Assembly: GCA_030710605.1 (NCBI GenBank)
Contig: CP092874.1
Span: 76,512,487-76,576,486, forward strand
Length of the DNA stretch: 64,000 bases
Origin: Cordylochernes scorpioides
Taxonomy: Eukaryota > Arthropoda > Arachnida > Pseudoscorpiones > Chernetidae
Direction of reading: 5' to 3'
Under the pieces are notes generated by a model that saw only the letters and a program-made list of their open reading frames with translations, searched no databases and was not told the origin of the DNA. Position numbers and translations under genes: made by a program. Positions within the stretch are counted from its first letter, which is position 1, and each line of letters opens with the position of its first letter. Of the stretch, positions 1 to 52,364 are shown piece after piece.

Positions 1-245
1 TTTTTTAAATAAAACTGAAAAACTTATACTTTTATTCTTTTGGTATACACGATATTAAAATCTATTTTAACTCTGAAGCAAATTCTGAAATACAAAGTTT
101 CTCAAATTAAGAAAAAGGCATCTTCTGATCGTGAAACTAAAGGTTGTTGATCACTTACGCCATCTGTCGGAATAAATATAAACCAATCGTTGATTAAAAA
201 AAAAAATCATAAATGGCCAAATATTAAACAAGAAAAGCTAACCAC

Positions 246-23545: not shown

Positions 23546-23550
23546 AATAG

Positions 23551-30240: not shown

Positions 30241-30356
30241 ACCTTACTGCAATGATAAAAATGATTAGATGAGAGTGTTTGACTCATCAGTTGTGAACCC
30301 TGTCAGTGGTTTCGATATAATAGATGTATTTTAAATAGTGTATTTAAATATATACA

Positions 30357-30523
30357 GTTAAACCTGTCTATAGCAACGCTCTAAATAGCGCCTTCTTCTC
30401 TATAGCGCCCGATTTTAAATACGTAGTACGATGCGATTTACATTAAAAGTGACCTGTCTCTAGTACCCCCTCTCTATAGCACCCTATTTTGGTGAGTCCC
30501 AAAAGGGGGCGCTATAAACAGGT
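30357..30523. mobile_element. TA-type MITE, degenerate copy 2
   Basis: Starts CAGTTAAACCTGTCTATAGC after TA and ends GGGCGCTATAAACAGG. The last bases of the right tip are lost. The equivalent copy in the other haplotype is at about 47880-48050. Confidence 0.75.
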
Positions 30524-31172: not shown

Positions 31173-32463
31173 CACTGCGTGACATTGAAAATGGAACACC
31201 AAGAAATAGTGACCAGAAAATTATGCAAATTTCAGGGTAGACGCGCCTAACCGAGTTATGCAAATGATGTAAAATGCGCAGCTCTCGTGCGCACATGGAG
31301 TAAGATATAAGGGAAGGAACTTGCAGAAAGGACAGTATTCGTGTCGTTATTTCTTCAAGGAAAATCATTGTAGAAATTTTGTTCTTGTGTCAAAAGACAC
31401 GTTTAATAACAGAGAATGCCAGGTCATCGTAAACGGAAGCAGTTCAAGCAGACAGACGCTTTTACGAGGGGCATGGTGATCGGACTGAAAAGGGCAGGTT
31501 GGTCCATACGTCAAATCGCAGCTGATACACACCTTGGTGCGTCCACGGTACACCGACTGTGGAGAAGATGGTTGGAACAAGGAAATGTGGAAATTTATAG
31601 GAATGTCGGTGCAACCAGAGTGACGTCAGCACGTGTGGATCGGCGTATCCTTCGACAAGCAGTGGCGGCCCCACAAGCCACTTGTACCGCCATCCTGCAA
31701 CATGTGCAAGACACCCTAGATCATTCCATCTCGACCAGAACCATTTCCCGTCGATTGGTTGCTAATGGCTTGCACTCATGCCGTCCGCTAAGAAGACTGC
31801 CATTGACCCCACCGAATAGGCGCCAACGTTTGGAATGGTGCCGGGCTAGATCGACGTGGATGACGGAATGGCACAGGGTCGTGTTCTCAGATGAGTCGCG
31901 TTTCTGCTTGTCCAGTGATAGTCGCCGTGTACGCGTGTGGCGTCGACGTGGAGAAAGGTCCAATCCGGCAGCAATCGTGGAACGCCCCACCGTGCGACAA
32001 CGTGGAATCATGGTTTGGGGCGCAATCGCGTATGATTCCAGGTCACCTTTACTTCGTATTCAGGGCACTATGACGGCCCAACGATACGTTGATGATGTGC
32101 TGCGACCGGTGACACTCCCCTACCTTCAGGGGGTACCCAATGCCCTTTATCAGCAGGATAACGCCCGACCGCACACTGCTCGCATTAGCCAACAAGCTCT
32201 GCAAGATGTACATATGCTTCCCTGGCCACCGTACTCTCCTGATCTCTCACCAATCGAGCACGTCTGGGACATCATTGGACGCCGTTTGCATGCCTTGCCA
32301 CAGCCGCGTTCAGAAGACGAACTGTGGCAAATGGTTGAGAGGGAATGACTATCATTTTGAAATAAAGATCACTTATTGTTCGTCCCTGTCTCTTTCTGTC
32401 TGCCGAGTTTCATCACTTTCTGGCCACTATTTCTTGGTGTTCCATTTTCAATGTCACGCAGTG
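31173..32463 (+). mobile_element. Tc1-like DNA transposon (element 2)
   Basis: About 40-bp terminal inverted repeats (CACTGCGTGACATTGAAAAT at the tips, extending through ggaacaccaagaaatagtg) are flanked by TA target duplications (31171-31172, 32464-32465). Size 1,291 bp with one transposase frame. Absent from the corresponding part of the third contig. Confidence 0.96.
31416..32348 (+). CDS. Tc1-like transposase, C-terminally shortened
   Basis: 310 codons from ATG 31416. Two helix-turn-helix DNA-binding subdomains occupy residues about 15-115 (AGWSIRQIAADTHLGASTVH; ISTRTISRRL). The catalytic residues are FSDESRF, YQQDNARPHTA and LSPIEHVWD. There are 32 residues between the second Asp and the Glu. 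The conserved GIMVWGAI box is present. The protein stops at MVERE, about 30 residues before the usual family end (about 340), because the sequence jumps to the 3' UTR. It would cut and paste the element, but with the end lost, activity is doubtful. Confidence 0.93.
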   Translation: MPGHRKRKQFKQTDAFTRGMVIGLKRAGWSIRQIAADTHLGASTVHRLWRRWLEQGNVEIYRNVGATRVTSARVDRRILRQAVAAPQATCTAILQHVQDTLDHSISTRTISRRLVANGLHSCRPLRRLPLTPPNRRQRLEWCRARSTWMTEWHRVVFSDESRFCLSSDSRRVRVWRRRGERSNPAAIVERPTVRQRGIMVWGAIAYDSRSPLLRIQGTMTAQRYVDDVLRPVTLPYLQGVPNALYQQDNARPHTARISQQALQDVHMLPWPPYSPDLSPIEHVWDIIGRRLHALPQPRSEDELWQMVERE

Positions 32464-32637
32464 TATAATAGAAAAAATTCGTAAAGGAAAATTTTATAGA
32501 TATTTTTCACGTTCATCATTTGTAATAACGGTCTTCCCTTATTAATATTTTAAATTTAATATATATATATAATTTTTATTAGAATTATGAAAATAATTAG
32601 AAATTCTATATATGCATCTTTTTCAAATATATATATA

Positions 32638-34152
32638 CACTGGTCCGCAAAATTAAAGGAACAACTTTTTTTTTTCCATTTATCTCAAATTTTATTGAAC
32701 ATTTATCAATGAAATTTTATACACAAATTTATTATTCCATTAATGATTAGAATACCCGAAATCAAAGAATTCTAACACGTATTTTATGCAAATTATCCGG
32801 TCAAGCAATGATCTTCTTGCAGTCAGTGCATAAATATCTTGGATATTGTTGTTAATATGGGGTGTGATCGCCTTTAACTGATAGACAGGCTCTACATCGG
32901 TGACCCATACTAAGAATTAGGGAGTTTATCAGCTCCTGTGGAATCAACGCCCACTCTTGTGTTAAGGCTGTTTCTAGCTCATGAGTGTTTCTAGGAAGGA
33001 ATTGGAGGGATGAGATCCGCCGTCCTAGGTTGTCCCATACATGCTCAATGGGATTTAGGTCTGGGGATCGAGCTCGCCAATTCATCCGAGCAATTGCATG
33101 GTTTTGGAGAAAAGTGTCGACCACACCAGCCCTATGTGGACGGGCATTATCATCCATTAGAAGGAAGTTTTCTCCCATTTCCAATGCTTGAGGCATCACA
33201 TATGCTGCAAAGATCTCGTCCCGATACCTCTGTACACTCAGGGTTCCTTGCCGAAAAATATGGAGTGCTGTGCGACCTCCCAAGAAGATTCCAGCCCAGA
33301 TCATAAAACCTTGGCTTCTGTAGGGATCCCTTTCAACCATATTCCGGGGATTATTTCTGGTTCCTACCTCTCTCCAGACAAAGACACAACGAGAATCGCT
33401 GTTTAGAGAGAATCTGGACTCATCAGTGAACATTACACGCCTCCATTCATATGGATTCCAGGCGACATGTTGTCTGCACCAAAGTTTCCTTGCTTTCTTT
33501 TGAGGTGGTGTCAATGGCACACAAATTATGAGTCGTCGAGCATAGAGGCCCTTCTTGTGAAGCCTTCTGCGTATTGTATCCGTTGATACTAAGACTCCTG
33601 TAGCTGCATTGAGGTCACTTCGTAGTTGCGATGCTGTCATTCTTCTATTGCGACGCACAAGGAGACTAAAATAACGGTCTTGATTTAACGTTGTGACCCT
33701 TGGCCGTCCTTGTCCGGGTGTTCTGGCAACATTAGCTGTCGTTTGAAATTTTTTCCAAAGCCATGAGACAATGTTTCTTGTCACTCCAAGCCATCTTGCT
33801 ACTTCTGCCTGTGATTGGCCTGCTTCCATCCTTACAGTAGCTTGCCATTTTATTTCTTGTGATAAATGTTGCCTATAAGCCATGAAAACTTTAAAAAACA
33901 AAAATGTTCAATAAAAATCTAGTGGAGCGTAAAATTAGGACGCTTTGAGAAAGACTCAGGCACGTGCTGGAGGCGGAGTCAACGTAGACAGTGGTATTTT
34001 GCATATTGGGAACAACTTTATTTGTTTTTCTGTTTTACATACTCTCTTAATTCATGGAAGCTTTTGAATATACCAAAACTTGATATATATCCCTTGATAT
34101 AACTTTTATTTTTCTTAAACATGTTTTGTTCCTTTAATTTTGCGAACCAGTG
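32638..34152 (-). mobile_element. Tc1-like DNA transposon (element 3), apparently complete
   Basis: The tips CACTGGTCCGCAAAATTAAA and the inverse of TTTAATTTTGCGAACCAGTG are flanked by TA (32636-32637, 34153-34154). It is 1,515 bp and encodes one uninterrupted transposase. A second copy at the same position in the third contig (49079-50555) is decayed. Confidence 0.96.
32852..33883 (-). CDS. Tc1-like transposase, intact
   Basis: The start MAYRQHLSQEIKW at 33883 fits the family better than the in-frame upstream ATG at 33901, giving 343 residues, normal length. Domains: first HTH about residues 10-55 (SQAEVARWLGVTRNIVSWLW), second HTH about 80-125 (MTASQLRSDL, STDTIRRRL), then the DDE domain with FTDESRF, LLMDDNARPH and LNPIEHVWD, a DD34E spacing. 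No stop or frameshift. It is the only full-length transposase frame in the window. It would excise and reinsert the element at TA sites. The C-terminus ends CLSVKGDHTPY. Confidence 0.95.
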   Translation of the reverse strand: MAYRQHLSQEIKWQATVRMEAGQSQAEVARWLGVTRNIVSWLWKKFQTTANVARTPGQGRPRVTTLNQDRYFSLLVRRNRRMTASQLRSDLNAATGVLVSTDTIRRRLHKKGLYARRLIICVPLTPPQKKARKLWCRQHVAWNPYEWRRVMFTDESRFSLNSDSRCVFVWREVGTRNNPRNMVERDPYRSQGFMIWAGIFLGGRTALHIFRQGTLSVQRYRDEIFAAYVMPQALEMGENFLLMDDNARPHRAGVVDTFLQNHAIARMNWRARSPDLNPIEHVWDNLGRRISSLQFLPRNTHELETALTQEWALIPQELINSLILSMGHRCRACLSVKGDHTPY

Positions 34153-34153
34153 T

Positions 34154-34272
34154 ATTTTAAATGGCTAGCTTTCAAGCTGCGCGTGTTTGCATTTGTAAAT
34201 ATTTCTTGTAAGATATAGTCGATATTTTTAAGTCCGTTGAAAAGCGATTATCGCTTGAAAGTTAGCTATTTA
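34154..34272. repeat. Short inverted repeat next to Tc1 element 3
   Basis: 'ttttaaatggctagctttc' at 34156-34174 mirrors 'gaaagttagctatttaaaa' at about 34255-34274. Also present in the third contig, where a LINE fragment is inserted within it. Confidence 0.7.
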
Positions 34273-34794
34273 AAATAAAAAGAAGCTATTTGTGAGGAAA
34301 TATTTTGTTATTTTAATACAATTTTTTGTTTGTAAGTAAAAGAAACACACAACAAAAAGATAGGAATATAAACGTTTTATTTAAAAGTTGTTATAAATTA
34401 ATATCTTGCAACAATTTTTCACATTTTGATGAAGTAAATTTTCGTTTGGTTTATATTTTTCTGAAAATCTGTAACATATAGAATAAACATATCAGCCCTT
34501 TCCTTTTATGTTTTGTGATTTTTATTCATTTAAATATACCTAAAGAAGGCAAACATAGACAGAAAGTATGAATACATTTTTTTCATTTTTAAGTTAAAAT
34601 TTATTTTGCTATGATTCTGCGCTCCATTGAAGAAAATATCGAGAAGAACGAAAATTGATTTTATGATCGCAATTAGAAATTTTAAAATTATAATAAACAT
34701 TCTTATTGATATTGAATAAAAATAGGATTATCAACAATCATTACATGATCAAAATAACCGAGAAAAAACGTAGTCAGGAAAAAAAAATGCTGAC

Positions 34795-34894
34795 NNNNNN
34801 NNNNNNNNNNNNNNNNNNNNNNNNNNNNNNNNNNNNNNNNNNNNNNNNNNNNNNNNNNNNNNNNNNNNNNNNNNNNNNNNNNNNNNNNNNNNNN
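34795..34894. other. Assembly gap 1 (100 N)
   Basis: Exactly 100 N, the usual placeholder for a gap of unknown size. Confidence 0.99.
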
Positions 34895-35219
34895 ATCGTC
34901 TGTAGAGATATTATTTTATAATAAATACCTTAGGAAACATATTGACAGAAATAAGTTTTATAAATTTCAATGAACAATTCATCAAATGACTTTTTAAAAT
35001 ATACACAATTGGTAAATATTGGTATTTTTGGTTATTTATTTCTGATCGCGTGTGTGTATCTTTGAAATAAAAAATCCACTACCTTGAATTTCTGTTTCCG
35101 TAACTTACATCGCTATTGATTTTCGCTAATTGAAGAAGCCACGCATGCGTGGAATGGTTCTCCTTGTTGGAAGAAATTCGATAACGCAAATACCGAGGAT
35201 GGAACTTCACATTTATATA

Positions 35220-35399
35220 CAGTTAAACCAGTCTATAGCGCCCTCTTTAAATAGCGCCTCCCTCTAAAAAGATACCGATTTTAAATACGTAGTACGATGC
35301 GATATTTACATTAAAAGTGACCTGTCTATAGCATCCCCTCTCTATAGCACCCTATTTTGGTGAGTCCCAAGGAGAGGGTGCTATAGACAGGTTCAACTG
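35220..35399. mobile_element. TA-type MITE, copy 3
   Basis: CAGTTAAACCAGTCTATAGC to CTATAGACAGGTTCAACTG, with TA on both sides. Allelic partner of 29045-29221. Confidence 0.85.
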
Positions 35400-35582
35400 T
35401 AGATGGACATTCTATTTGGCAACGTGAACGTGGTTTAGAGGATTCGGTTTATAGGATTCATCCTGACACTTTTATATCCATAACGGATATTTGATTATGA
35501 AAATTCGAAACTATTATAGACGCGTATGAATCTTTTACAAATTAAACAATTTCTACTGCAATTAATAAAATTAATGTGAGGG

Positions 35583-35636
35583 TCTGCTCATCAGTGGTGA
35601 ACCCCCCCCCCCCCTCCCCAGCGGTTTCGCCAGTTT
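35583..35636 (-). ncRNA. Motif E, degenerate copy
   Basis: The minus strand has CTGGC-GAAAC...CTGATGAG-CAGACCCTC. One C of the GCC strand is lost, and the central G run is expanded to more than ten bases. Confidence 0.4.
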
Positions 35637-35716
35637 AATTATAAGAAACATAAACGAGTATTTAAAATAGTACAAATGTGATATTGTACTGGGATAAGGT
35701 GCATACATTTTTTTTT

Positions 35717-36137
35717 AAAGGCATCTCCTTATCGTGCAACTGAAAGTTGCTACTAATGGCTTGCGCCATCTATTGGAATAAATATCAACTATTCTCGTTG
35801 ATTTTTAATTATTCCATTATTGGCCAAATACCCATTCTTTATTAATCAAGAAAAGCTAACCACGGACGCGTTTCGGGCTGTTGGCCCTCGTCAGCGTGGT
35901 GCAAGCTGTACCTCAACGAACAAAAAACTGGTAATTCAGGCATCCTGAAAAATCATGAAACGGGTAGTTAAGGTCGGAATTGCGTGAGTCCGTGGTTAAG
36001 CTTTTCTTGGTTAATCAAGAATGGGTATTTGGCCAATAATGGAATAATTAAAAATTAACGAGAATAGTTGATATTTATTCCGATAGATGGCGCAAGTCAT
36101 TAGCAACTTTCAGTTGCACGATAAGGAGATGCCTTTT
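35717..36137. mobile_element. Fold-back element, family A, complete copy
   Basis: Two arms of about 145 bp (AAAGGCATCTCCTTATCGTG at the tip, then CGCCATCTAT and CTAACCACGGA) face each other around a unique centre of about 130 bp. A complete hammerhead motif spans the junction of centre and one arm, on the minus strand. No ORF. The terminus type and ribozyme recall the pseudo-LTRs of Penelope-like elements more than a DNA transposon (inference). Confidence 0.85.
35854..35907 (-). ncRNA. Hammerhead ribozyme, family A
   Basis: Read on the minus strand: AGCU, GCA bulge, CCACG, CUGACGA (35894-35888), stem II GGGC-CAACA-GCCC, GAAA (35874-35871), a very short stem III in CGCGU, the C17 position at 35865, then CGUGG which pairs perfectly with CCACG, and AGCU which pairs with the upstream AGCU. 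All invariant core residues (CUGANGA, GAAA, UH) are present. Predicted cleavage lies between 35865 and 35864. Short stem III is typical of animal type I hammerheads, which often act as dimers. Self-cleavage is not tested. Confidence 0.82.
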
Positions 36138-38286
36138 TTATATATAATAAACGATTATGTTTTGTAAATATGTAAATAAGTTTTTCATTTTTTTTATTCT
36201 TACCCCTTAAGTCAGACAGTATTTTATCAATTTCTGTTTATCCTTAAGCTCAATTAAATCAATCTCTGATCAAACTATTTTTATACTTTCAAGATTTTTG
36301 TCACGACTGCATTACCAATACCATTTAGTATTAAAAAGAACCAGCAAATAAATTTCTAGCATATCAAATTTAATCATAATAATATTCATGTATACAAAAG
36401 TGAAACCTTATCTCAACAATTCCAAAATCAAGCAGAAAATATTTTTTTTATTTTTTTACAACATATATATATATACATTTCGGAAAAAGAGAAGGAAAAA
36501 AATCAAAAGAAGATTCAATCCCAGAATCCCTCCACAGGGAATTTTCCAGAATATGAGGCAGACGATCGATCTCGGGTCAATTTAAGAGAAATTACCTCGG
36601 GGGGAGTAAAGTACATCTTGGGGGTCGATGGAGATGGTCACGTGACCGCTAGAATTGATCTTCGTCTGCTTTTATAAACCGCCATTTGCGTCCTTTCCCC
36701 TTTCAGTAACCTAACGTTTCTCATTTTGATGATACATTTATATAGAATTGTAGAACGAAGTTTGAAAACTATACCGCAAATGCTCCTTTTGAATGAAAAA
36801 TCATAAGCCGCATTATATTGTATTATAAATTAATTTATATAGAATATTCGTTAAAGTTTTTAAATATATATATTCTCCACCTCAATTTATGATATTCAAA
36901 ATATGAATATTTATATATTTTCTTTATACAAAATAATAACTGGATGTTTAAAATGGAGTTTTTTTTTTATATAAAAAACGCTTGAAAGATGTTATTATTT
37001 GTAATATAGCTTATATATACGTGTTTTTAAGAACACGCTTTGAAAAAAATATCATTCTTTCCGTTATTTTATATTCAATAATGTATAAACAGTTCAAGTA
37101 GTATGAAAACTGATGTACTGAAAACTGATTTATTTATAATTTTATTATGTCATGTGTAGAGAATATTTTAAAAGAAAAAACTTCCAAACAATAAACAGAA
37201 GAGTTCGTCTGCGACAGGCTTCTAGCAGAAGATCGATTGGAGGAGGCCAAGGTCAACGCCATGTGGCGACCTCTTCCGTTCCAAAGTTGCCAATTTAAAC
37301 TTTGAGTTTTTATCATTTAAACCGCTAGGACTCTATATAGAACTTTTTAAAAGTTTTCTGAAATATTATAGCTTATTTCGCCTTATTTTAAAGATCAATA
37401 TTTGATAATTATTTATTATAATATTAATTTTTCTTTCACCCATTTAAAAACTTCTATATATTAAGAATTTTTAAAAGATAAATATATATATATATATCAA
37501 TAAGCATATTTTGGATCGAAAATAAACATCTTCCAAAATCACTTTATTAGGTACCGCTCAAAAAGAGCAACCTAGTTTATGATATTTGCAACAATGAATA
37601 ATATGTGACGGTTATTCACATAATAAACAAAATGTTAACGCGGGATTCGATACCGGTTCATGACTGTCGGGAATCTAGGGTTTTGCCCCTTCGAAAGCCG
37701 GCTCTTTTTCGAAAATAAAATAAAACATTTTATTTATTACAAAAATCCAATATTTCGCTAGGCTAATATCATATAAAAAAAATAATCAAAAATATAAATA
37801 TTTAATAGAAGGTTTTAGATTGGAATCTAAACGAAGAGAGAACAATTTTGCATTATTTTATAAATAATAAATGAATATAATTGCATATTTAGTGAAAATT
37901 GCAGATGAGGAAATGCTTAGATCGCCGAAAAACGGTTGAATTAGAGTAGTTATTAATTAATTTGTATAAAAATATGGAAAGTTATACTATAATTCTAAAT
38001 TTAACTTCCATTTGTTCTCTCTCCTTAATTTTTTTACTTTTATAAATATCAAAATAAAAATACCAATACCAGTATTCCTCTTTCTGTAACCCCTATCAAT
38101 AGCATATCAATATATAAAATGTCATATCGATATTTATGTTTAAAATTTTAAACATATACTTCAAATAACACTATAAATATGGTCATGAATGCTGTCATAA
38201 TGTCCCGACGTAAATGGTCATTTTTAGAGCCGACTCTTGTATTGGACCGACGTAATACAAGTAATACTTGTAAATCCTATGTAGAG
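36138..38286. other. Spacer, no recognisable gene (copy B)
   Basis: Mirror of 26281-28433 with small differences. Same small conserved frames and the same tRNA-like relic near 37640-37700. Confidence 0.5.
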
Positions 38287-40190
38287 TCAATTCTGGTCAA
38301 ATATAGGGCAGAGCATTGCCAGGACCCATTGTATGAGACTTATATAGGACTGATTCTTGCCATAACCCAACGTAGTTGATCCTATGTAGGGAAGATTCTT
38401 GCCATTGTCCAACGTAGAAGGTCCTATGTAGTGTAGATTCTTGCCATAACATAACGTAGAAGGTCCTATGTAGGGCAGATATTTGCCATAACCCAACGTA
38501 GAAGGTCCTATGTAGTGTAGATTCTTGCCATAACATAACGTAGTTGATCCTATGTAGGGAAGATTCTTGCCATTGTCCAACGTAAAAGGTCCTATGTAGT
38601 GTAGATTCTTGCCATAACATAACGTAGAAGGTCCTATGTAGGGCAAATTCTTGCCATAACCCAACGTAGTTGATCCTATGTAGGGCATATTCTTGCCATA
38701 ACATAACGTAGACGGTCCTATGTAGTATAGATTCTTGCCATAACATAATGTAGAAGGTCCTATGTAGTGTATATTCTTGCCATAACCCTGCGTAGTTGAT
38801 CCTATGTAGGGAAGATTCTTGCCATTGTCCAACGTAGAAGGTCCTATGTAGTGTAGATTCTTGCCATAACATAACGTAGAAGGTCCTATGTAGGGCAAAT
38901 TCTTGCCATTACTTAACGTAGAAGGTCCTATGTAGGGCATATTCTTGCCATAACATAACGTAGACGGTCCTATGTAGTATAGATTCCTGCCATAACCCAA
39001 CGTAGTAGATGCTATGTAGGGAAGATTCCTGCCATAACCCAACGTAGAAGGTTCTATGTAGAGCAGATTCTTGCCATATCCCAATGTATAAGGTCTTAAA
39101 TAGGGCATATTCCTGCCATAACCCAACGTAGTAGATCCTATGCAGGGCAGATTCCTGCCATAACCCAACGTAGTAGATGCTATGTAGGGCAGATTCCTGC
39201 CATAACCCAACGTAGAAGGTTCTATGTAGAGCAGATTCTTGCCATATCCCAATGTATAAGGTCTTAAATAGGGCATATTCCTGCCATAACCCAACGTAGT
39301 AGATGCTATGTAGGGCAGATTCCTGCCATAACCCAACGTAGTAGATCCTATGCAGGGGCAGATTCCTGCCATAACCCAACGTAGTAGATGCTATGTAGGG
39401 CAGATTCCTGCCATAACCCAACGTAGAAGGTTCTATGTAGAGCAGATTCTTGCCATATCCCAATGTATAAGGTCTTAAATAGGGCATATTCCTGCCATAA
39501 CCCAACGTAGTAGATGCTATGTAGGGCAGATTCCTGCCATAACCCAACGTAGTAGATCCTATGCAGGGCAGATTCCTTCCATAACCCAACGTAGTAGATG
39601 CTATGTAGGGCAGATTCCTGCCATAACCCAACGTAGTAGATCCTATGCAGGGCAGATTCCTTCCATAACCCAACGTAGTAGATGCTATGTAGGGCAGATT
39701 CCTGCCATAACCCAACGTAGAAGGTTCTATGTAGAGCAGATTCTTGCCATATCCCAATGTATAAGGTCTTAAATAGGGCATATTCCTGCCATAACCCAAC
39801 GTAGTAGATGCTATGTAGGGCAGATTCCTGCCATAACCCAACGTAGAAGGTCCTATGTAGAGCAGATTCTTGCCATATCCCAATGTATAAGGTCTTAAAT
39901 AGGGCATATTCCTGCCATAACCCAACGTAGTAGATGCTATGCAGGGCAGATTCCTGCCATAACCCAACGTAGAAGGTTCTATGTAGAGCATATTCTTGCC
40001 ATATCCCAATGTATAAGGGTCTTAAATAGGGCAGATTCCTGCAATAACCCAACGTAGTAGATCCTATGCAGGGCAGATTCCTGCCATAATCCAACGTAGA
40101 AGGTTCTATGTAGAGCATATTCTTTCCATATCCCAATGTATAAGGTCTTAAATAGGGCATATTCCTGCCATAACCCAACCTAGAATATCC
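38287..40190 (-). repeat. 42-bp minisatellite core (copy B)
   Basis: Reverse complement of the 24011-26280 array, about 45 units, with a different arrangement of variants and a different length. Minus-strand frames of 361 and 366 codons are periodicity artefacts. Confidence 0.95.
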
Positions 40191-41270
40191 TAACGTAGAG
40201 CAGTCTTGCGACGTAGAAAGTGCTATTTAGAAAATATTCTCGTTTTGATTTGACGCAGTAGGTCCTGTGTAGAGAAATTACCCGATGTGAATCAATGTAA
40301 AATGTCCTAATGTAGACAAATTATCGTCCTGACTCGAATTAAGAGGTTCATTGCGAAGCCTTTTCTCCCCGCAGAAGGTCCATTTTACATTAGATTTTCG
40401 CCTTATTTCAATGTGGATGATCCTACGTAAAGAAAATTCTATACCTGACACTTATAGAATATTCTATAAATAGAATTATCGCATTTCCCGAGGAAAATAT
40501 CTTATGTAGAGCATATTATCGCCGTTACTCGACAAATAAATTTCTGTGAGTCGCAGATTCTTGTCGTGACTCGACCTAAGAGGTACTAAGTAGAGCAGAT
40601 TATCGCTGTGATTTGCCATAGAAAGCTGTCGTCGCAGATTCTCACCATGTATCACGTATATGTCCTATAGGAAGAATTTTCTTAAGTGACTCGACGTAGA
40701 AAGTAGTATTTAGAGCAGCTATTCGACATGATTCAACGTAATAGGTCCTATGTAGAGCAGATTTTCGCCGTGTCTAGACGTAGAAGGTCTCATATAGAGA
40801 AGATATTTGACTGAATCGACGAAGAATATCCTATCTAAAGCGTATTCTACAGGTTTCTTGACATAGAAGGTCTATTGTAGATTGAAGTTTCGCTGTGATT
40901 CAAAGTAGATGGTCATATGTGAAGTATATTCTCTACCAGAGACTTCTAGAAGCTCTTATAAATAGATAATTCTCGCATTTCCCGATGTAGATAGTCTGAT
41001 TCGATATAAAAGGTCCTATGAAGAGCAAATTCTCTCGAGATTCGTCGTAGCTGGTTCTATGTAAAGCAAAATTTCCTGTTATCTGTAAAGGTTCCTGGTA
41101 GAAGCAAATTTCGCCGTGACTCAACGCAGAGGACCCTATGTATCACAGATTTTCACCGTGTATTGACGCATTTGTTTCTTTTAGAAATTTTTCTTCCGTG
41201 ACTCGACATCGGACAGTCATTTTAGGTCAGATTTTCCACGTGATTCATCGTAGATGGTACTATTTAAAGT
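40191..41270 (-). repeat. 42-bp minisatellite degenerate flank, no Pao insertion (copy B)
   Basis: Matches 18590-19204 joined directly to 23551-24010. The Pao target reads continuously here (around 40666-40672). Confidence 0.85.
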
Positions 41271-41690
41271 AACTAATTAAAAGATCCAATATGTTGGCAT
41301 CGCCCAGCATTTTAATTCCATACCTTCAGCGTTGAAAAAAATTATAAATATCTTGTACAAAAACATTTAATATTGTTACTTAAATACTTCTTTTGAAAAT
41401 TATTTGTTGGTTGAAAGTTTATTCGGAGAAAAGGAAGTTAAAATAAATCAAATATTTCTAATATTAAAAAAGGCCAACTTTTTGGGCCAGTTTGTCAGAT
41501 TATTCAAATGATAGGAAGTTATTGCTTAAGATATTTTTCATGCTATCTTAACGAAGGTGCTTTTTTTTCAAATAAATTCTTAGAAATAAGGATTAAGAGT
41601 GCTAATATATTTGGAAAATATTATTTTGTAATATCTTTCGATATATCTTTCCATAAATAAATATCAAAAGCTAATTTATGATATTGAACC

Positions 41691-43494
41691 TTAAGTTATA
41701 GATTTTGGTGGAAATTTTCAATTTCAACTTTATTTTAATTGTTGTTGTTGTTTTTATTTCCTATATCTTTGTGTAAATATCACACGAATTCCGTGAGTTC
41801 ATGCTCCTCGAGCCTGATCTCATGGGATGGGGGTGTAAGGGTGCAACTTTCGTTGATCATGGCACCATTCTAATTGTTACTTACCTATTCACTTTAATTT
41901 TCAAAACTTTCAAAATATTATTAGAGATGTGGCTGAAATATGAGAAAATACTTGTTTTAATACAGAGAACAAAAATAAACTGAAGAATTTAGTATAAAGT
42001 AAACACCTCATTAATACCAAACATTACCCTGTTTATAGAGAATGCCATATAATTGTAGTTTGAATTATGGTTAATTCAAGCTGTAGACTAGAGGGTTGAT
42101 GGGTCTACATCTTGTATTATCCTACTCATTACATTCGTTTTCTTAATCCTATATTAAATTGTTTTTATTGATTTCTGTATCGTGTATAATTTAGTTCTAC
42201 AAGACCCCGGAATAGAGTCTTAAATAATTTTTACCACATTATAAATAAAAAAAAGTTTCTGCTGTTATGAGATTAATTGCTTGTAGAGGAATTATTGGTC
42301 ATTTGCTTAATCCTGGAATCCATGAGCATGTGACACTGCATCCGTGGCAATAATACTAAAAATAGTTCAGATCATTATTGCTTTAATTTTTATTATTAAT
42401 ATAAACATAATTAGAGAAAAGTTCTGCCTGACTTAAGGCGTAAGAATAAAAAAAAAGAAAAACTTATTTACATAATGTACAAAAGTTTGAGCCTGCCATC
42501 GGGAAACAGCAACGATGAGGTTTTATAGGGGAAGCGTGACCTATGGCGGTCGATTTAGCAGAGTATTTGAATCTATGAAATATAATTTTAAATAAAATAA
42601 TATTTTAATATAACATATATATATACATACCTATAGATAAATAGCGCGATCCTATGAAATGTCGTAATGAAGATAAAAGTTAATTTTAAATATAAATCAT
42701 ATATGTAATATACCTTATAATAATATTATAAAATACTCTGTTTAATTAATTTATTTTTGATTGTTTGGATTTGGCAGCACTGTAATGATTGTTGTTGTTA
42801 TGAATATATTAAAAAGTGTATGTTTAACATTAAAAAGAGATATAATTAAAATTTGTTTCTTAATTTGGTAAAGCATATTTATTTATTTAATCGAAGAGAG
42901 AGAGAGAGAGAGGGGAACATCACAATATAAACATTATTATCTGCCTTAAAAAGTCATTTTTCACGCAACACCTAAACAACTAACCAAACTGAATTTCACC
43001 TATATATATATAGACAGATAAAAATTTTTAAAAAACATATTCTATATATATATTCTAAATATATATTGTGATTCCCAACCAGCCAGTCCTGAACATCTAT
43101 TGAATTGTATCAAATTCTCCAAAAAAAAAGACCTCTGGGAAAACCTCAGGACTATAATAGAATAGCTGAGACAATGTAACCTAATGGAGATCGTTTAAAC
43201 GACTTGAGGAGTAAGCAACAACAACAACAAATATAAATGATAATTAATTAATTAAAAAATTACTTCATTTCATAGATTCGTCAGGTTGATAAGACCAATA
43301 GCTAGTAAGAATTCTCATTGCGAATATTCCTCTTTAACGACCGCATTCCTCATTAACGACCACTTTAGGTTAGTAATCACTTTGACGAGGTATCAAAAGT
43401 CTCAAGGCCTCGACATTCAGCAACCAATCAATTTGTGTACTGAGAATTTACTTATAAAAATGAAATAAATCAAATATAAAAATGATATGGCATT
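41691..43494. other. Spacer present only in copy B
   Basis: AT-rich, no gene. Contains a (GA)n run at about 42892-42913 and a 60-bp stretch at 42424 resembling the flank of the family A fold-back element at 28354. Copy A lacks it because of the deletion at 18180. Confidence 0.5.
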
Positions 43495-43789
43495 TTTTAA
43501 TTAATATTATTATCCATAGTACACGTGGTAGAGACTATGATAATCATGGTTGGTAGAAGTTGACGACTGCTTTTACTGTAAGTGCACCACATGTCTACAC
43601 ATGTGAAAGGCAGTTCGACCTTTGCACTTACCAGCGTGCCAGAGCCCCTTTTGTTACTTACACTTGTTGGTGAAGTAAGACTTTTGCAAGAATCGGGGGT
43701 CATTGAAGCATTTTTTTAATAGAAAAAAGTGCCCAATGCGGGATTCGATCCCGGGTCGTAGCGGTTTAAACCACCCTTCCACCGATTCC
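43495..43789 (-). mobile_element. tRNA-derived SINE, second copy
   Basis: About 295 bp, same family as 16401-16713. The minus strand shows the B-box-like GGGATCGAATCCC region, the ACATGTGTAGACATGTGG block and 'accacgtgtac' near the tail. It lies within or just past the 3' LTR of copia element 2 copy B. The target duplication is unclear. Confidence 0.88.
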
Positions 43790-44011
43790 CAGGCAATTTA
43801 TTTTGATAAAAACTGTAAACAATAGGGCTATACACATTCCTTTCATCTGCACTGCCAGGGTTGCTGAAACACATTTATTTTAACACCCCCCCTCAAGTGT
43901 CATTTTCATAAATGCCAATTGCACAATTTTCATCCCATGTTGGAAAGTTTCATAAATTTGTTCTACTTGTCTTTACATAAGGGTTTCGTTAACATGTCTG
44001 CTATGTTTCTT

Positions 44012-44500
44012 CTATCCCTCAATGTAGTCTATTATATCTTTGGCCAATAAATCCTTTATGTAGTAAGTTCTAATATCAATGTGTTTACTTATTTTGGAGT
44101 TTTCAAAAGTTTCGGCTATGCAGATAGCACTCTTGTTGTCCACTAGCAAAGTTGTGTCCTCAAATGATGTAAAGTCCTTATTTATTTCCTTCAGATGAAC
44201 TAGGTCTTGTATAGAAGCAGAATCTGCTACATATTCTGCTTCTGCGGTCGAAAGAGAAACACATCCCTGTTTCTTAGAAAACCAAGACACTGAATTTGAT
44301 CCATGTAGTACTATGTTTCCACTTGTACTTTTTCTGTCAATCTTTATCTCTGGCCATTCAGAGTCTGAATATGAAATCAAATTGTTAGATGATACTGTAT
44401 ATATCAGTCCAATATCTTTGGTTGCCATTATATCCTCTTGATTTTGTTCAGCTTGAAAGTTTAGTTCCATAGGTGTATCCACTTTTTTGCATTCTGTCAT
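44012..44500 (-). pseudogene. pol: Copia element 2 RNase H (copy B)
   Basis: 162 codons: connection region MTECKKVDTPMEL, then RNase H with SYSDSEWPE, KSTSGNIVLH, SLSTAEAEYVA and LLVDNKSAICIA, ending HIDIRTYYIKDLL. The stretch between the connection and the first Asp is shortened by about 60 codons, so the domain is defective. The final IADMLTKPL tail is just out of frame downstream. Confidence 0.88.
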
Positions 44501-45182
44501 ATTGAACTTTTCTAAAATTTTGTTAATGAACTTTGTTTGTTTTGATCATTAACTTGCCACTTTCTCTTGATATTTCCATTCCCAAGAAATTGGTCACTTT
44601 TCCAAGATCTTTTGCATTAAATTATTGTTTGAATATTTCTATTACTTTATCAATATTGTCTTTTTTCCAGTTATCAGTAGATCATCTACATACAACACTA
44701 TCCATGAGTCATTTAGAGATCTTTTGAAGTTGTATTTAGTAGCTATTTCAATGAATTTATCGTTCCAAGATTTTGGTGATTCTCTTAATCTATTTAAGCT
44801 TTATTTAGTTTGAATATTTTTCCATTTTCTTGTTTCACTCCTTGTGGTGCTTTGATGTAAATGTCTGATTCAATATTTCCATTTAAAAATGCTGTTGTAT
44901 GTCCATTTGATTCACTTCCCAGTTTTTGTTCGTTGCATGAGAGAGTAACATTCTTATTGTCGACGTTCTAGCTACTGGAGCGTACATAATATCATATGAT
45001 TCTTCCATTTGGGATCCTTTTGCTACTAAGCGAGCCTTTTTGGTTCCATCCTCCTTGGTTCTAAAAATCCACTTTGTATCAATTGGTTTGAAATTTGATT
45101 TTTCTCCTAATTTTATTGAAGATCATGTTTTCAATTCTTCATGAGATCGAATTTCTTTATCAATAGCTTCCTTTCATTCTTT
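44501..45182 (-). pseudogene. pol: Copia element 2 reverse transcriptase fragments (copy B)
   Basis: Three frames hold KWIFRTKEDGTKKARLVAKG, the SPKSWNDKF region and the catalytic YVDDLLITG (YVDD codons at 44692-44681). Several frameshifts and stops break it. This domain is missing from copy A. Confidence 0.88.
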
Positions 45183-46325
45183 TTACCTAATTGCTTGATT
45201 GTAAGAAATTGGATCTTCACCATTTGTAAACAAGCAATATACTGAATATAGTTCATAATCTTCTTGATACTTTGGTGGTTTGATTATTCGACCCGATCTT
45301 GTAGTTACACTTTCTTCTTTGTCTGATTGTACCGATGTTTGTGGGGTTTTTTCTTCATCTTGAGATTCAGTTATTATTCCTTTAGGTTCTGTTTGGTCTA
45401 AGATGATTTCCTTATCAAATTTAGTTAATGTTTCATCAAATGTTACATCTGTTGAAATCATTTCTTTATCAGTTTCCGGATCCCAGATGCGATATCCGCT
45501 TCCACTGTATCCAACCATGATTGTTGATTTTGCTCAAGAATCTAGTTTTTTTGGTTTGGGTATAATAAGTCTCCAAGCTCTTGAGCCAAAAACCTTAAGT
45601 TTGGATAGGTCATTTCGCTTATACCATATGCTAGCCGGAGGTATTCCTTTGTTCGCACTTGTTGGACTTCTGTTTAATTCGTATGCTAAGCAGTAAATGG
45701 CTTCTCCCCAAAGATATTTTGGTAGATTTGTTTCTGCCAACTCTCTCTTTGTTCTCACTTTATCAATCAATGTTCGATTCATTCTTTCAGAAGTGCCATT
45801 TTGTTGTGGTGTGTAAGGTGAGGTATATTCTAATTGAATACCTTTTGTTCTGCAAAACTGCTTGAAGTTTCCAGATGAAAATTCCTTACTATTATCTATT
45901 CTAATTTTTCTTGTTTTCTTGTTATGTTGAGTTTTTATAAACTTGATAAAATCAATTATGTTTTGTTTAGCTTCACCTTTTGATTTGAGAAGTCGCACTA
46001 CTACAAAGTGTGAGTCGACATCTATTAGTACCTGAAAATATGTTTCTCCATCATATGTTGGTGGATCAATTGGTCCTGATAAGTCTGAATGTATCAGCTC
46101 TCCAATTTCCTTAGTTGTTTTCCAGGTTTTCTCAAATGATCTTCTTGTGCTTTTTCCTTTGATACAGGTTTCACATTTCTCTTGTGGACTTGATAGCCCT
46201 AATTTCTTTAAACTGTATCTATTCAGATGTCCCAATCTTCTGTGCCACAATGTGTCATCAGTTTTGACTGCATGAGCTATAACACTTTCAGGGTTACTGT
46301 CTATTTCTATTTTAAGTGAGTACAA
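45183..46325 (-). pseudogene. pol: Copia element 2 integrase (copy B)
   Basis: 263 codons (46325-45534) plus 111 codons (45518-45183) in the same phase, separated by one TGA at 45533-45531 (AGA in copy A). HRRLGH, CETC and the D, D and E of the catalytic triad (LIHSDLSG, IRIDNSKEF, NGTSERMN) are present. Confidence 0.92.
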
Positions 46326-46372
46326 GTTTCTATAATTATTACACTTAAATTCATGGTTTCTTGTAATTATTT

Positions 46373-47404
46373 TTACTTCAGATTGTTAAATATCACTTGG
46401 TGGCACTGTTGTATAATTTTTCCTACTGACAACAAGTTCTGTTTAATGCCATCAACTATTAGTCCATGGATTGCTATTGGGATATTATTGATCTTTACAT
46501 TTAAAGTTCCACTTTTATTAGCTGACATCTTTTCGCCATTAGCAATATGAATTTCAACCTTATGTTCTAAAATCTTCACATCTGTCATATATTTTTCTAA
46601 TTCACTTTTGATCAGGTTCTGTGTTGCTCCTGAGTCTAAAATAATATTATCATTTTCATTGCAATCTATAGCATTCATTGCTACAAATGATAGTTTGTGA
46701 TCCATCTGATAGGCTTTTTGTCTAGGTTGACTCTCTCTTTGTCTTTCATTTCTTTCTTTTTGTGTTTGATTCTTTTCTCTTTTGAAAAATTTCTTTTTAC
46801 TTCTACATTCTGTAGCCTGGTGACCTTTCTTGCCACAATTATAGCATGTAAATGTGAATGATCCAAAGGTCATTTCTTCATTCCTAGGTTCCCCTTGTTT
46901 ATTTTTCTTTTTGAGTTCTTCATCCAGCAATCTTGCATTGTTTTTTGTGTTTATTGTTTCTTATTGCTGTGATCACATTTTCATACTCTTCATTCAATGA
47001 CAATAACAGATGACATATTTTGTCAGATTCATCCTTTTTGGAACCTATATTATCCAATTTACGAATTATAGTATCAAATTTAAGAAAATGGTGCTCTAAT
47101 TTTTCATTATGTTTGCTTTTTAAAGTCAACAACTTTCTTTTTAGTGTTAGTTTTGTACACGCTTTTTCTTTCAAATATATTTTCGAGCGCTTTCATCATT
47201 TCTTTAGCTGTTTTTGCATCTTTAATTATGTCTAGATGTTTATCAGTTAAACATTGAACAAGCGTAAATTTTGCCTTTGCATCCTTAATATTGCAAATAA
47301 CTCGCGTTCTTTTTCATCGACAAAATCATTAATTTCGTTTTCTAATGTTAGATGTATTTGTTTTTCTTCTAACAATAGTTTAACTCTAAATTTTCAGCTG
47401 TTGA
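46373..47404 (-). pseudogene. gag-pol: Copia element 2 gag-protease (copy B), cut by gap
   Basis: The frame of 185 codons (46930-46373) carries CYNCGKKGHQATEC and, uninterrupted, LDSGATQNLI and HIANGEKMSA. Both insertion targets of copy A are therefore intact here. Upstream gag (47174-46920) is in another frame. A TGA replaces the conserved Trp codon next to the gap. Confidence 0.9.
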
Positions 47405-47504
47405 NNNNNNNNNNNNNNNNNNNNNNNNNNNNNNNNNNNNNNNNNNNNNNNNNNNNNNNNNNNNNNNNNNNNNNNNNNNNNNNNNNNNNNNNNNNNNNNN
47501 NNNN
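47405..47504. other. Assembly gap 2 (100 N)
   Basis: Exactly 100 N. Confidence 0.99.
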
Positions 47505-47757
47505 AATGTACAATTTGGATTATAGATTATAAACACGAGGTAAAAAGACCAAATTCAAATAAATAAATAGTGTGTGACGTTTCGGTAACAGCGTTGTTAC
47601 CATCTTTACCGAAACGTCACACACTATTTACTTGGATTTGGCCTTATTACCTTGTGTTTATAACCTATTGAAGATGGTAACAACGCTGTTACCGAAACGT
47701 CACACTTATTTATTTATTTGTATTTGGTCTTATTACCTTGTGTTTTATTTCTACAGA
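47505..47757 (+). repeat. 87-bp tandem repeat, short allele
   Basis: Matches 29545 onwards: one inverted unit, then about two direct units, against six direct units in the first contig. Confidence 0.9.
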
Positions 47758-47879
47758 CCTTACTGCAATGATAAAAATGATTAGATGAGAGTGTTTGACT
47801 CATCAGTTGTGAACCCTGTCAGTGGTTTCGGGGTTTCGATATAATAGATGTATTTTAAATAGTGTATTTAAATATAAAC

Positions 47880-48050
47880 AGTTAAACCTGTCTATAGCAA
47901 CCCTCTAAATAGCGCCTTCTTCTCTATAGCGCCCGATTTTAAATACGTAGTACGATTCGATTTACATTAAAAGTGACCTGTCTTTAGTACCCCCTCTCTA
48001 TAGCACCCTATTTTGGCGAGTCCCAAAAGAGGGCGCTATAAACAGGTTTT
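47880..48050. mobile_element. TA-type MITE, copy 4 (degenerate)
   Basis: Counterpart of 30357-30523, with the same lost right tip. Confidence 0.75.
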
Positions 48051-48075
48051 AAAAGAATCATACGCGTCTATAATA

Positions 48076-48624
48076 CATGGAAGCAATTGCCGCCTCTCCC
48101 GTCAAAATAAACGTCAGAATCTGACGCCATCTATTGACCGTCGCCGCAACTAGCGGCATCGGGTCGGTGACAAAGCCACAACACCAACTTTGGCAAACTG
48201 ATAAGCGTCCACCTAGAGACCATGGTTTCGGGCTAATGGCCCTCGTCAGTCTAGGGCGGATTTTATTCCATGAGATCCACACGGGATCTAATGGAATCCA
48301 CACAATCTACCAAAGAGGTGTTTTGCTGGCAATGTGGCTGGGCCAAATCTATTGGCAAAACATAGATGGAAAATTTGCCGGGAGGAAATTAATCCATGGA
48401 AGCAATGGTCGCCTCTCCCGGGCCATTAGCCCGAAACCATGGTCTCTAGGTGGACGCTTATCAGTTTTCCAAAGTTGGTTATGTGACTTTGTCACCGACC
48501 CGATGCCGCTAGTTGCGGCGACGGTCAATAGATGGCGTCAGATTCTGACGTTTATTTTGACGGGAGAGGCGACCATTGCTTCCATGGATTAATTTCCTCC
48601 CGGCAAATTTTCCATCTATGTTTT
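48076..48624. mobile_element. Fold-back element, family B, with hammerhead
   Basis: A 549-bp insertion flanked by a 12-bp duplication GCGTCTATAATA (48064-48075, 48625-48636). The first contig has the uninterrupted site near 30540. The left arm (CATGGAAGCAATTGCCGCCT...) and right part are inverted copies over about 180 bp. The right part (48358-48624) is itself a palindrome with arms starting AAAACATAGATGG. The layout is a partial unit facing a full palindrome. No protein frame of note. Confidence 0.93.
48205..48265 (-). ncRNA. Hammerhead ribozyme, family B
   Basis: On the minus strand: UCC, GC, CCUAGA, CUGACGA (48249-48243), stem II GGGC-CAUUA-GCCC, GAAA (48229-48226), stem III ACC-AU-GGU, C17 at 48218, then UCUAGG which pairs perfectly with CCUAGA, and GGA which pairs with UCC. 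Every invariant core position is present. Predicted cleavage lies between 48218 and 48217. The right-arm inverse at about 48420-48455 lacks the CUGACGA box. Cleavage itself is inferred. Confidence 0.85.
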
Positions 48625-49078
48625 GCGTCTATAATAGTTTCGAATATTAATAATAAAAAACACATTACAAAACCAGTACTTATCCTTTATTTCAAGGTTG
48701 ATAGGTTCGGACCGGGGTTACACAGGTATGCGAAGAGATCACCAGACAAGCATACAGACAACACTTTAAGTGTTTACACACAACACACTCCGAAATAACT
48801 TCCACATTAACTATGAACCCCTTTTATGTACAAACATGGTCACAATTTTCCAGTGAGAGAACAGTTCGCTAATTAAAAACAAACGATTTTCCCAGTAACT
48901 CAAAGGCTTTAAAATTTTATGTTTTATCAATGGAAATTGAGAATTCCTATTGTAATCAAAAAGAGAGAGAAAATATTTGATATATATTTTTATAAAAATA
49001 TACTAATTTTTATTCATGATTAAATTGTGAAACACTTTTAAAATTACAGAATATTTCCTCACATTGAGTTTTTTTTTA

Positions 49079-50555
49079 CACTGGTCCGCAAAATTAAAGG
49101 AACAACATATTTTTTTCATTTATCTCAAATTTTATTGAACATTTATTAATGAAATTTTATACACAAATTTATAATTCCATTATTGATTAGAATACCCGAA
49201 ATCAAAGAATTCTAACACGTATTTTATGCAAATTAGCCGGTCAAGCAAGGATCTTCTTGCAGTCAGTGCATAAATATCTTGGATATTGTTGTTAATATGG
49301 GGTGTGATCGCCTTTAACTGATACACAGGCTCTACATCGGTGACCCATACTAAGAATTAGGGAGTTTATCAGCTCCTGTTGAATCAACGCCCACTCTTGT
49401 GTTAAGGCTGTTTCTAGCTCATGAGTGTTTCTAGGAGGGGGTTGGGGGGAGGGATGAGATCCGCCGTCCTAGGTTGTCCCATACATGCTCAATGGGATTT
49501 AGGTCTGGGGATCGAGATCGCCAATTCATCCGAGCAATTGCATGGTTTTGGAGAAAAGTGTCGACCACACCAGCCCTATGTGGACGGGCATTATCATCCA
49601 TTAGAAGAAAGTTTTTTCCCATTTCCAATGCTTGAGGCATCACATATGTTGCAAAGATCTCGTACCGATACCTCTGTCCAGTCAGGGTTCCTCGCCGAAA
49701 AATATGGAGTGCTGTGCGACCGCCCAAGAAGATTCCAGCCCAGACCATAAAACCTTGGCTTCTGTAGGGATCCCTTTCAACCATATTCCGGGGATTATTT
49801 CTGGTTCCTACCTCTCTCCAGACAAAGACACGACGAGAATCGAGGTTAGAGAGAATCTGGACTCATCAGTGAACATTACACGCCTCCATTCATATGGATT
49901 CCAGGCGACATGTTGTCTGCACCAAAGTTTCCTTGCTTTCTTTTGAGGTGGTGTCAATGACACACAAATTATGGTTCGTCGAGCATAGAGGCCCTTCTTG
50001 TGAAGCCTTCTGCGTATTGTATCAGTTGATACTAAGACTCCTGTAGCTGCATTGAGGTCACTTCGTAGTTGCGATGCTGTCATTCTTCTATTGCGACGCA
50101 CAAGGAGACTCAAATAACTGTCTTGATTTAACGTTGTGACCCTTGGCCGTCCTTGTCCGGGTTTTCTGGCAACATTAGCTGTCGTTTGAAATTTTTTCCA
50201 GAGCCTTCTGCCTCTGATTGGCCTGCTTCCATCCTTCCAATAGCTTGCCATTTTTTTTCTTGTGATAAATGTTGCCTATAAGCCATGAAAACTTTAAAAA
50301 ACAAAAATGTTCAATAAAAATCTAGTGGAGCGTAAAATTAGGACGCTTTGAGAAAGACTCAGGCACGTGCTGGAGGCGGAGTCAACGTAGACGGTGGTAT
50401 TTTGCATATTGGGAACAACTTTATTCGTTTTTCTGTCTTACATACTCTCTTAATTCATGGACGATTTTGAATATACCAAAACTTGATATATATCCCTTAA
50501 TATAACTTTTCCTTTTCCTAAACATCTGTTGTTCCTTTAATTTTGCGAACCAGTG
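49079..50555 (-). mobile_element. Tc1-like element 3, decayed copy
   Basis: Same tips (CACTGGTCCGCAAAATTAAA) and TA flanks as 32638-34152. Internal indels shorten it to 1,477 bp. Confidence 0.93.
49292..50286 (-). pseudogene. Tc1-like transposase, decayed copy of element 3
   Basis: Fragments 50251-49808 and 49784-49431 share the residues of the intact protein at 33883-32852. A deletion removes part of the first HTH (the EVARWLGVTRN region is lost near 50205), a frameshift lies near 49800, and a G-rich expansion near 49437 breaks the C-terminal part. The catalytic boxes FTDESRF, LMDDNARPH and LNPIEHVWD are still legible. Confidence 0.92.
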
Positions 50556-50613
50556 TATTTTAAATGGCTAGCTTTCAAGCTGCGCGTGTTTGCATTTGTA
50601 AATATTTCTTGTA

Positions 50614-51778
50614 AGCTACGTAGTCTCCACTACAAATATGCGAAAGCAATAATAAGAGGTGGTCCATGCACACCGACAATACCAGCTATTTCATTGACGG
50701 GTTGTCCCCCACTCGATATCTCTATAAAGGCTCACATAGAATATTTAAAAACTTTGAAAACGGGCCACTACGAATCACGCCCAAGTCCTTCCTTTTTACC
50801 CTATCCTCCATTACGGAAGTTAATCTATTTTACCAAATCACTACAACTAAATGTCACCACCATTTACACAGACGGATCCCAATCATCAGAAGGAGTTGGG
50901 GCTGGAGTCATCCTACCACCTCCTCTACAAACCATACAACTTAAACTCCACCAGGAGTGCATCAGTGTTCCAAGCTGAACTGCTTGCCATTCTTTACGCA
51001 ACAAAAATCACCATGAATTTCCCGAAAGAGCACTTTATCATTGCCTCAGACTGCCAATCAGCTCTATCAGCCATATGTAGGTCTTGGCCCCCAAGAACAC
51101 AACTAATTGCGGAAATAATCTACAACCTGCATTTTTCACCAAATGTGCAACTCTGCTGGATCAAAGGCCACAACGGTATTCCAGGAAATGAACTGGCGGA
51201 TCAGGCGGCAAAGGCTGCAGCACATTCTAATCTGCCACTATCCTTTACCACCCTCCCAAAGAGCGTCGCGCGCGGTAAAAAAGAACAGATAGCCCTCAAA
51301 ATGTGGACAGACCTCTACATCCAAGATTACTCCACCAGAAATCTACGAAGATTTGCTGCTACCCCGAAACTACTCCTCCAAATGCTTCGAAACATCAAGC
51401 ATGGATCTACCTCCACAACAATCTTGACCGGCCATGGTTACATTCAGGCAGACCTTGCAACGGTATCGAAAGAAGACCCAATTTGCCCCCACTGCCAAGA
51501 TGAAGACCAAACCGTAGACCACCTCCTCTTCACTTGTCCAACCTTCCAATACCAAAGATTCCAGACAGCCACTCTCCTAGGTATCACCAACATATGTCCA
51601 GCATCCCTAGAAAATCTCCCAAGAAAGAAATCTGCCTGGCGACACCTCATTAATTGGACTTCCACTGACATTGTATATAAATCCAAGAAGACTTAGTTCA
51701 GAAGGACATCCCGGGTAGTTGGCGACTTCTGTACGCTCCAGGAACCTGGGTTACTTAAATAAATAAAAATAATAATAA
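50614..51778 (+). mobile_element. 5'-truncated LINE fragment
   Basis: An insertion absent from the first contig, whose uninterrupted sequence lies near 34210. It contains the 3' end of a LINE ORF2 with RNase H and ends in an A-rich (TAA)n tail at about 51758-51778, the hallmark of target-primed reverse transcription. I could not define a target duplication. Confidence 0.9.
50851..51696 (+). pseudogene. LINE ORF2 C-terminal part: RNase H and zinc motif
   Basis: RNase H catalytic positions are visible: D in IYTDGSQSS (just upstream, in the frame ending 50978), E in FQAELLAILYA, D in IIASDCQSALSA, and D in GNELADQAAKAA. The W-I-K-G-H-N-G-I-P-G box is typical of Jockey/I/R1-type LINEs. A Cys-His motif CPHCQDEDQTVDHLLFTC follows near the end. 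One frameshift near 50975 splits the RNase H. The rest of reverse transcriptase and the endonuclease are missing. Confidence 0.9.
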
Positions 51779-52364
51779 TATAGTCGATATTTTTAAGTCC
51801 GTTGAAAAGCGATTATCGCTTGAAAGTTAGCAATTTAAAATAAAAAGAAGCTCTTTGTGAGGAAATATTTTGTTATTTTAATACAATTTTTTGTTTGTAA
51901 GTAAAAAGAAACACACAACAAAAAGATAGGAATATAAACATTTATTTAAAAAGTTGATTATAAATTAATATCTTGCAACGATTTTTCACATTTTGATTGA
52001 AGTAAATTTTCGTTTGGTTTATATTTTTCTGAAAACCTGTAACATATAGAATAAACATATCAGCCCTTTCCTTTTATGTTATGTGATTTTTATTCTTTTA
52101 AATATACCTAAAGAAGGCAACATAGACAGAATCATAAATACATTTTTTCATTTTTAAGTTGAAAATTTATTTTGCTATGATTCTGCGCTCCATTGAAGAA
52201 AATATCGAGAAGAACGAAAATTGATTTTATGATCGTAATTAGAAATTTTAAAATTATAATAAACATTCTTATTGATATTGAATAAAAATAGGATTATCAA
52301 CAATCATAACATGATGAAAATAACCGTGAAAAACGTGGTCAGGAAAAAAAAATGCTGACAAGAT

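Follow-up and report, generated by a model that had tools for sequence, protein, structure and literature searches.

Two hammerhead ribozyme motifs lie on the minus strand of the window, by which the whole stretch of 64,000 nucleotides of Cordylochernes scorpioides DNA analysed here is meant, and each of them is located inside a short palindromic dispersed element (elements A and B hereafter). The motif of element B (48212-48255) has a type I core with a 6-bp stem I, a 4-bp stem II, a palindromic ACCAUGGU stem III and a GUC triplet, and its letters read CCTAGA CTGACGA GGGC CATTA GCCC GAAA CCATGG TC TCTAGG. The motif of element A, in the copy A3 (35859-35900), likewise has a type I core with a 6-bp stem I, a 4-bp stem II, a palindromic ACGCGU stem III and a GUC triplet (ACCACG CTGACGA GGGC CAACA GCCC GAAA CGCG TC CGTGGT). 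The stem I helices of the two motifs are perfectly paired and unrelated in sequence, and stem II is the same in both, so that of the three helices only the first and the third, which is short and palindromic, differ. Weak or palindromic stem III hammerheads of this kind, thought to be active as dimers, have precedent (PMC3088659; PMC7761336). Both boxes (CUGANGA and GAAA), a NUH triplet, three helices in the right order and an open stem I place A3 and B among the type I hammerheads; two further copies of element A (A1 and A2, described below) fall outside this class.

A preliminary description of this DNA, made from its letters, was thus right about the places and strand of the two motifs (CUGACGA, a GGGC/GCCC stem II, GAAA and GUC in both), about stem I sequences that differ completely while pairing perfectly in each, about type I hammerheads with a very short stem III and about a setting in mobile elements; its 5-bp stem I for A is corrected here to 6 bp. 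Its claim that covarying stems imply selection for the fold overreached, as A and B are two different families: stem II is invariant here, no series of homologous stems is at hand for comparison, and the evidence from covariation is weak. The covariance-model search that it had proposed was run with Rfam and gave no match above threshold. Absent from that description were several features treated below: the two additional copies of family A, the head-to-head palindromes, the target duplication and empty site of B, the likely second haplotype in the window and the predicted masking of the ribozyme by the inverted arm. In the whole window, the gathering score was reached by none of 4227 families, and a search of 13 kb with the E limit raised to 10 brought up no hammerhead. 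When searched alone, A aligned end to end with RF00163 (Hammerhead_1; model positions 1-45 of 45) in both core and stem order, but at 24.9 bits (E 1.6e-4) against a gathering score of 34. B alone was matched solely by the RAGATH-1 hammerhead (12.5 bits, E 7.5; gathering score 56.3), with RF00163 not listed.

The motifs were also assessed by pattern. A whole-fold descriptor, which required 5 bp or more in stem I, the CUGANGA box, 3 bp or more in stem II, the GAAA box, a stem III that is short and a NUH triplet, has two matches in the window, exactly A and B; among 300 simulated windows (order-1 Markov), 299 held no match and one held a single match. The looser core CTGANGA-8..26-GAAAC is matched five times in the window, versus a shuffle mean of 0.57, by A, B, two damaged copies of family A and one chance-like occurrence at 8511. 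A MAFFT alignment of three cores misplaced stem III, and the pair counts were made without this alignment. Scans with the exact core patterns gave zero matches in viral contigs and zero in prokaryote genome contigs, and our literature search found no paper naming both the hammerhead ribozyme and a pseudoscorpion.

The window is interrupted by runs of 100 N at 34795-34894 and 47405-47504. The piece between these runs is collinear, in reversed orientation, with 14396-29545, the piece after the second run is collinear with 29546-34794, and both pieces abut at the neighbouring homologous bases 29545/29546. The alignment blocks that were kept (200 nt or longer, taken in inverted orientation for the middle piece and in direct orientation for the final one, with shorter minisatellite self-matches dropped) number 12, ten of them at 94-97% identity and two, through a minisatellite, at 85-90%. 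Judged from this arrangement, the window looks mis-scaffolded: 34895-47404, in reverse, and 47505-52359 together appear to represent a second haplotype of 14396-34794 that was kept in the scaffold. The similar stretches at 28/36 kb and 30/48 kb were first read as segmental duplications; since the break points fall at the two 100-N gaps, an unmerged haplotype is the simplest and more likely reading, with a true duplication less probable. If the second haplotype is real, A2 and A3 would be alleles, and A would be one locus seen twice; B would be a presence/absence polymorphism and hence recently mobile. The putative haplotypes differ further in a stretch of 4342 bp with BEL/Pao genes (Peptidase_A17, RVT_1; 19205-23546), which is missing at 40665-40668 and whose flanks overlap by 4 nt, as for the insertion of an LTR element. 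A large minisatellite (23901-26276 and 38290-40226), several phases of which contain long open frames, is inverted between them.

Element B is an insertion of 549 bp (48076-48624, minus strand), whose flanks recur without the insert at 30 kb. On its two sides stands a target duplication of 12 bp, GCGTCTATAATA (48064-48075 and 48625-48636), which is single in the paralogous or allelic stretch (empty target site, 30540-30551); the same 12-mer is found elsewhere in the window at 28921 and, on the opposite strand, at 35512, where the flank of B is partly repeated. Within the insertion, a direct copy (48076-48420, minus) and an inverted partial copy (48420-48624, plus) are joined head-to-head at CCCGGG. 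The inverted copy begins inside the hammerhead, at stem II, equals the direct copy at 165 of 172 positions and outruns it by a tail of 38 nt (48587-48624, plus; 38-40 nt, as two junction bases are ambiguous). The starting 31 nt of the direct copy (48390-48420) recur, 90% identical, at 48071-48101, a spacing of 319 nt, and the source of B therefore looks like a 319-nt circle or tandem. We infer from this one overlap that the source may have been a circular or multimeric RNA of a 319-nt unit. B would then hold about 1.1 unit, in which one unit briefly overlaps the next, and the inverted partial copy. The unit (319 nt, 48.9% GC) has no recognised gene; the longest stop-free frame in the doubled unit is 115 aa, and the frames of B are without a Pfam family. 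B shows the insertion anatomy of a Penelope-like element, with an inverted copy, a one-sided tail and a short target duplication, and the insertion is apparently recent.

The copy A3 of element A (35717-36136, minus) is a palindrome of 420 bp, the arms of which (about 140-150 nt) are 94-95% complementary and enclose the hammerhead; its longest stop-free frame is 48 aa. The copy A2 (28435-28735, plus) is probably allelic to A3 and has a GA run in place of the right arm and the 3' part of the hammerhead, the core of which (28678-28702, plus) ends after GAAAC at this run. The copy A1 (112-1784, minus), with arms near 112-246 and 1691-1784, is interrupted by a nested element, and its hammerhead (252-276, minus) is decayed, with a broken stem II and GCA replacing GUC. 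Two of the four hammerhead copies, those of A1 and A2, are consequently broken. The outer ends of A1 and A3 are almost alike. The A1 arms agree with each other at 68 of 92 positions, and with the A3 arms at 68-74 of 90-92 (left arm) and 74-76 of 97-98 (right arm); they are no closer to each other than to the arms of A3, and five of the seven informative columns of the A1/A3 arms group by insertion. Family A has the inverted copy, a tail is absent from it and no target duplication could be defined. The inverted arm of A3 has its inner end at most 3 nt from the predicted cleavage site; a start of the inverted copy at that site was considered, but while A2 and A3 agree with it to within 3 nt, B does not, and the idea is kept as suggestive.

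The element nested in A1 (374-1663) has inverted repeats of its own (374-501/1534-1663) around an open reading frame at 702-1163, which is therefore taken as nested in A1 and was rejected as a part of element A. The frame has no Pfam family and 1523 homologues, the named ones being arthropod among the matches listed; it is 96% identical to a C. scorpioides protein, and the best 16 of the 1523 matches are from C. scorpioides. The decamer ATAGATGGCG recurs in the arms of A and B downstream of the hammerhead (28481, 35764, 36083, 48125 and 48528), and twice near 58.6-59.0 kb (58593 and 58963).

Copies beyond the window were read from annotated proteins alone. At E up to 1, four of 43 candidate proteins match B and five of 20 match A, all of them from C. 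scorpioides, which suggests that both elements are dispersed in this species or a close relative. P0121 and P0123 are sense-frame read-throughs of the entire hammerhead B, with the peptide RLTRAISPKPWSLGGR as in the window. The match of P0121 to B and the direct copy end only a few nucleotides apart, and beyond this match the protein is Tc1-transposase-like (DDE_3, E 1.7e-5, 25.1 bits; Pfam cut-off 28.6). P0122 and P0124 are antisense matches to B that end inside the ribozyme, at stem II and stem III, respectively, although exon ends of the gene models could mimic such stops. All five A-like proteins match via the hammerhead in antisense. The codon over the free position of CUGANGA gives H in P0125, P0126 and P0128 and R in P0127 and P0129; the codon over the cleavage triplet gives Y in P0127 and P0129 and D in P0125, P0126 and P0128. 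These residues suggest CUGAUGA and GUA variants, both of which are permitted in hammerheads. P0128 deviates at three further residues, and its copy of A may be decayed. P0126 seems to run from antisense into sense parts of A and, unless this is a splice, would show a further head-to-head junction, placed elsewhere in the element. P0125 carries an RVT_1 reverse transcriptase domain beside family A; it was considered as the sought enzyme partner and set aside, as the gene model looks like a fusion that has taken in a LINE-like piece. Among these proteins, P0124 (ADCY8), P0128 (ZFPL1) and P0129 (ACP7) are annotated genes with antisense peptides of B or A, in which the elements are exonised or misannotated.

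Folding predictions separate the single copy from the whole insertion. Stems I and II are predicted to form in single copies of both elements. For B, the pairing probabilities in stem I are 0.75-0.85 for the four inner pairs and 0.57 and 0.29 for the outer two; the corresponding values for A are 0.93-0.98 in two sequence contexts and 0.87-0.96 in a third. In a piece of A from 35998, in which the innermost bases of the inverted arm (AACCACGGAC) are kept, stem I drops to 0.004. In the whole palindromes, stem I falls to 0.0 in A and B, and stem II is held at 0.99 in A and lost in B. The minimum-energy folds pair core bases that stay unpaired in an active hammerhead, and part of the ribozyme has its complement in the inverted arm. 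With stem I lost and the core bases paired in these models, masking of the ribozyme is predicted for any transcript that spans the complete insertion.

Taken together, A and B are probably type I hammerhead ribozymes in short non-autonomous retroelements of Cordylochernes, with a Penelope-like enzyme as the inserter. The anatomy of B has its closest likeness in Penelope elements, of which two have been described in relevant respects. In the inserts of Adineta vaga (Pen2a_Av), adjacent inverted pLTRs, an optional 31-bp tail on one inverted pLTR, target duplications of 8-10 bp (absent from some inserts) and head-to-head palindromic junctions are reported (PMC3846280). The Penelope protein of Anolis carolinensis (PAc) cuts and extends both target strands, prefers AT-rich DNA and initiates reverse transcription internally, the tail being defined by the start sites; the hammerhead of this element cleaves only with the protein, and its mutants still insert in vitro (PMC11167929). 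The features shared with B are the adjacent inverted copy, a one-sided tail of 30-40 nt, a short target duplication, an AT-rich target and a hammerhead near the repeated region (PMC3846280; PMC11167929). In contrast to those elements, A and B lack a reverse transcriptase/endonuclease gene, and the unit of B is of 319 nt only; the Adineta vaga paper names hammerheads zero times (PMC3846280). The second likeness is to the non-LTR retrozymes of metazoans, which are gene-free, about 170-400 nt long and below 50% in GC, with a type I hammerhead (PMC7229834), and the unit of B agrees with them in all these respects. It differs in that B is about 1.1 unit with an inverted partial copy instead of a tandem array, and its circular RNA is putative; the word 'inverted' occurs zero times in the main text of the retrozyme paper, the Discussion of which puts Penelope elements forward as no more than a strong candidate for the mobilisation of retrozymes (PMC7229834). 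No gene for a Penelope reverse transcriptase or a GIY-YIG endonuclease was found in the elements or in the 17 window ORFs scanned with Pfam, a subset of the ORFs of at least 75 aa.

In the mechanism that we propose, an RNA of the 319-nt unit, circular or multimeric, would be cut to length by its own hammerhead, possibly acting as a dimer via the palindromic stem III. A Penelope-like enzyme (reverse transcriptase with GIY-YIG endonuclease) would then insert the RNA unit by cutting both target strands and priming reverse transcription on each, with the two internal starts separated by about 38 nt on the RNA. The two first strands, both starting near the 3' end of the RNA, would meet head-to-head and yield the palindrome, the inverted arm of which would thereafter mask the ribozyme in transcripts of the whole insert. 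Counting against this explanation are the missing enzyme gene in the elements and the 17 scanned ORFs, the Rfam scores below gathering, the dispensable hammerhead of the Anolis element in vitro (PMC11167929), the undefined target duplication of A and the weak agreement between the arms of A1. We nevertheless consider the explanation as a whole reasonably probable. Priming on two strands is our own choice; the authors of the Adineta vaga study prefer self-priming on an antisense template for the palindromes of its inserts (PMC3846280).

The alternative that survives best is that these are metazoan retrozymes mobilised by a LINE, with the inversion arising from twin priming on multimeric or circular RNA. 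The gene-free 319-nt unit with its type I hammerhead and GC of 48.9% fits animal retrozymes, and the window does contain LINE-type sequence, an RNase H ORF at 50851-51696. Ordinary twin priming, however, inverts an upstream part of the RNA, whereas the inverted copy of B repeats the same 3' region, and a tail of about 38 nt has its precedent in Penelope (PMC3846280; PMC11167929); a LINE is hence regarded as an unlikely mover. A Penelope-type mover could also have produced the palindrome by self-priming on antisense RNA or by template jumping instead of priming on both strands. Self-priming has been put forward for head-to-head palindromic junctions (PMC3846280), and the junction of B is itself a CCCGGG palindrome; nevertheless, the copies of B end at different sites, about 38 nt apart and each next to a target duplication, as for two separate starts, and the Anolis protein extends both target strands (PMC11167929), which leaves this route quite improbable. 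Still less credence is given to family A (and B by analogy) being a DNA transposon with long terminal inverted repeats and an incidental hammerhead, even though two or more independent insertions of A have common outer ends (AAAAAGGCAT...ATGCCTTTTT) and share arms about 140-150 nt long, and A1 might be taken to have a TTAA on either flank. The ends of B differ by about 38 nt between its sides and its arms start inside the ribozyme; A itself is without a transposase, the ORF in A1 being nested; and in P0126 the change from antisense to sense A seems to lie at another inner point, although a splice could mimic this. Finally, chance motifs or an assembly artefact from chimeric inverted reads are highly implausible, for, despite the lack of an Rfam match at gathering, the mis-scaffolded look of the window and the breakage of two of the four copies, an artefact would not explain an empty site together with the 12-bp target duplication, the full descriptor is matched by chance in about one of 300 windows and further genomic copies exist.

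On the reading of Penelope-type insertion, B may tentatively be regarded as a missing link for retrozyme mobility: a gene-free unit of retrozyme size, in an apparently polymorphic insertion with the Penelope signature, in which the resulting palindrome masks the ribozyme. If true, it would be direct genomic evidence of Penelope enzymes mobilising retrozymes. Masking of the ribozyme by the inverted copy would be a simple reason for such copies to be silent or to yield double-stranded RNA. Further, since both ends of this apparently recent insertion are defined, its empty site is located and its ribozyme is intact, the question of the mobiliser becomes testable in one species.
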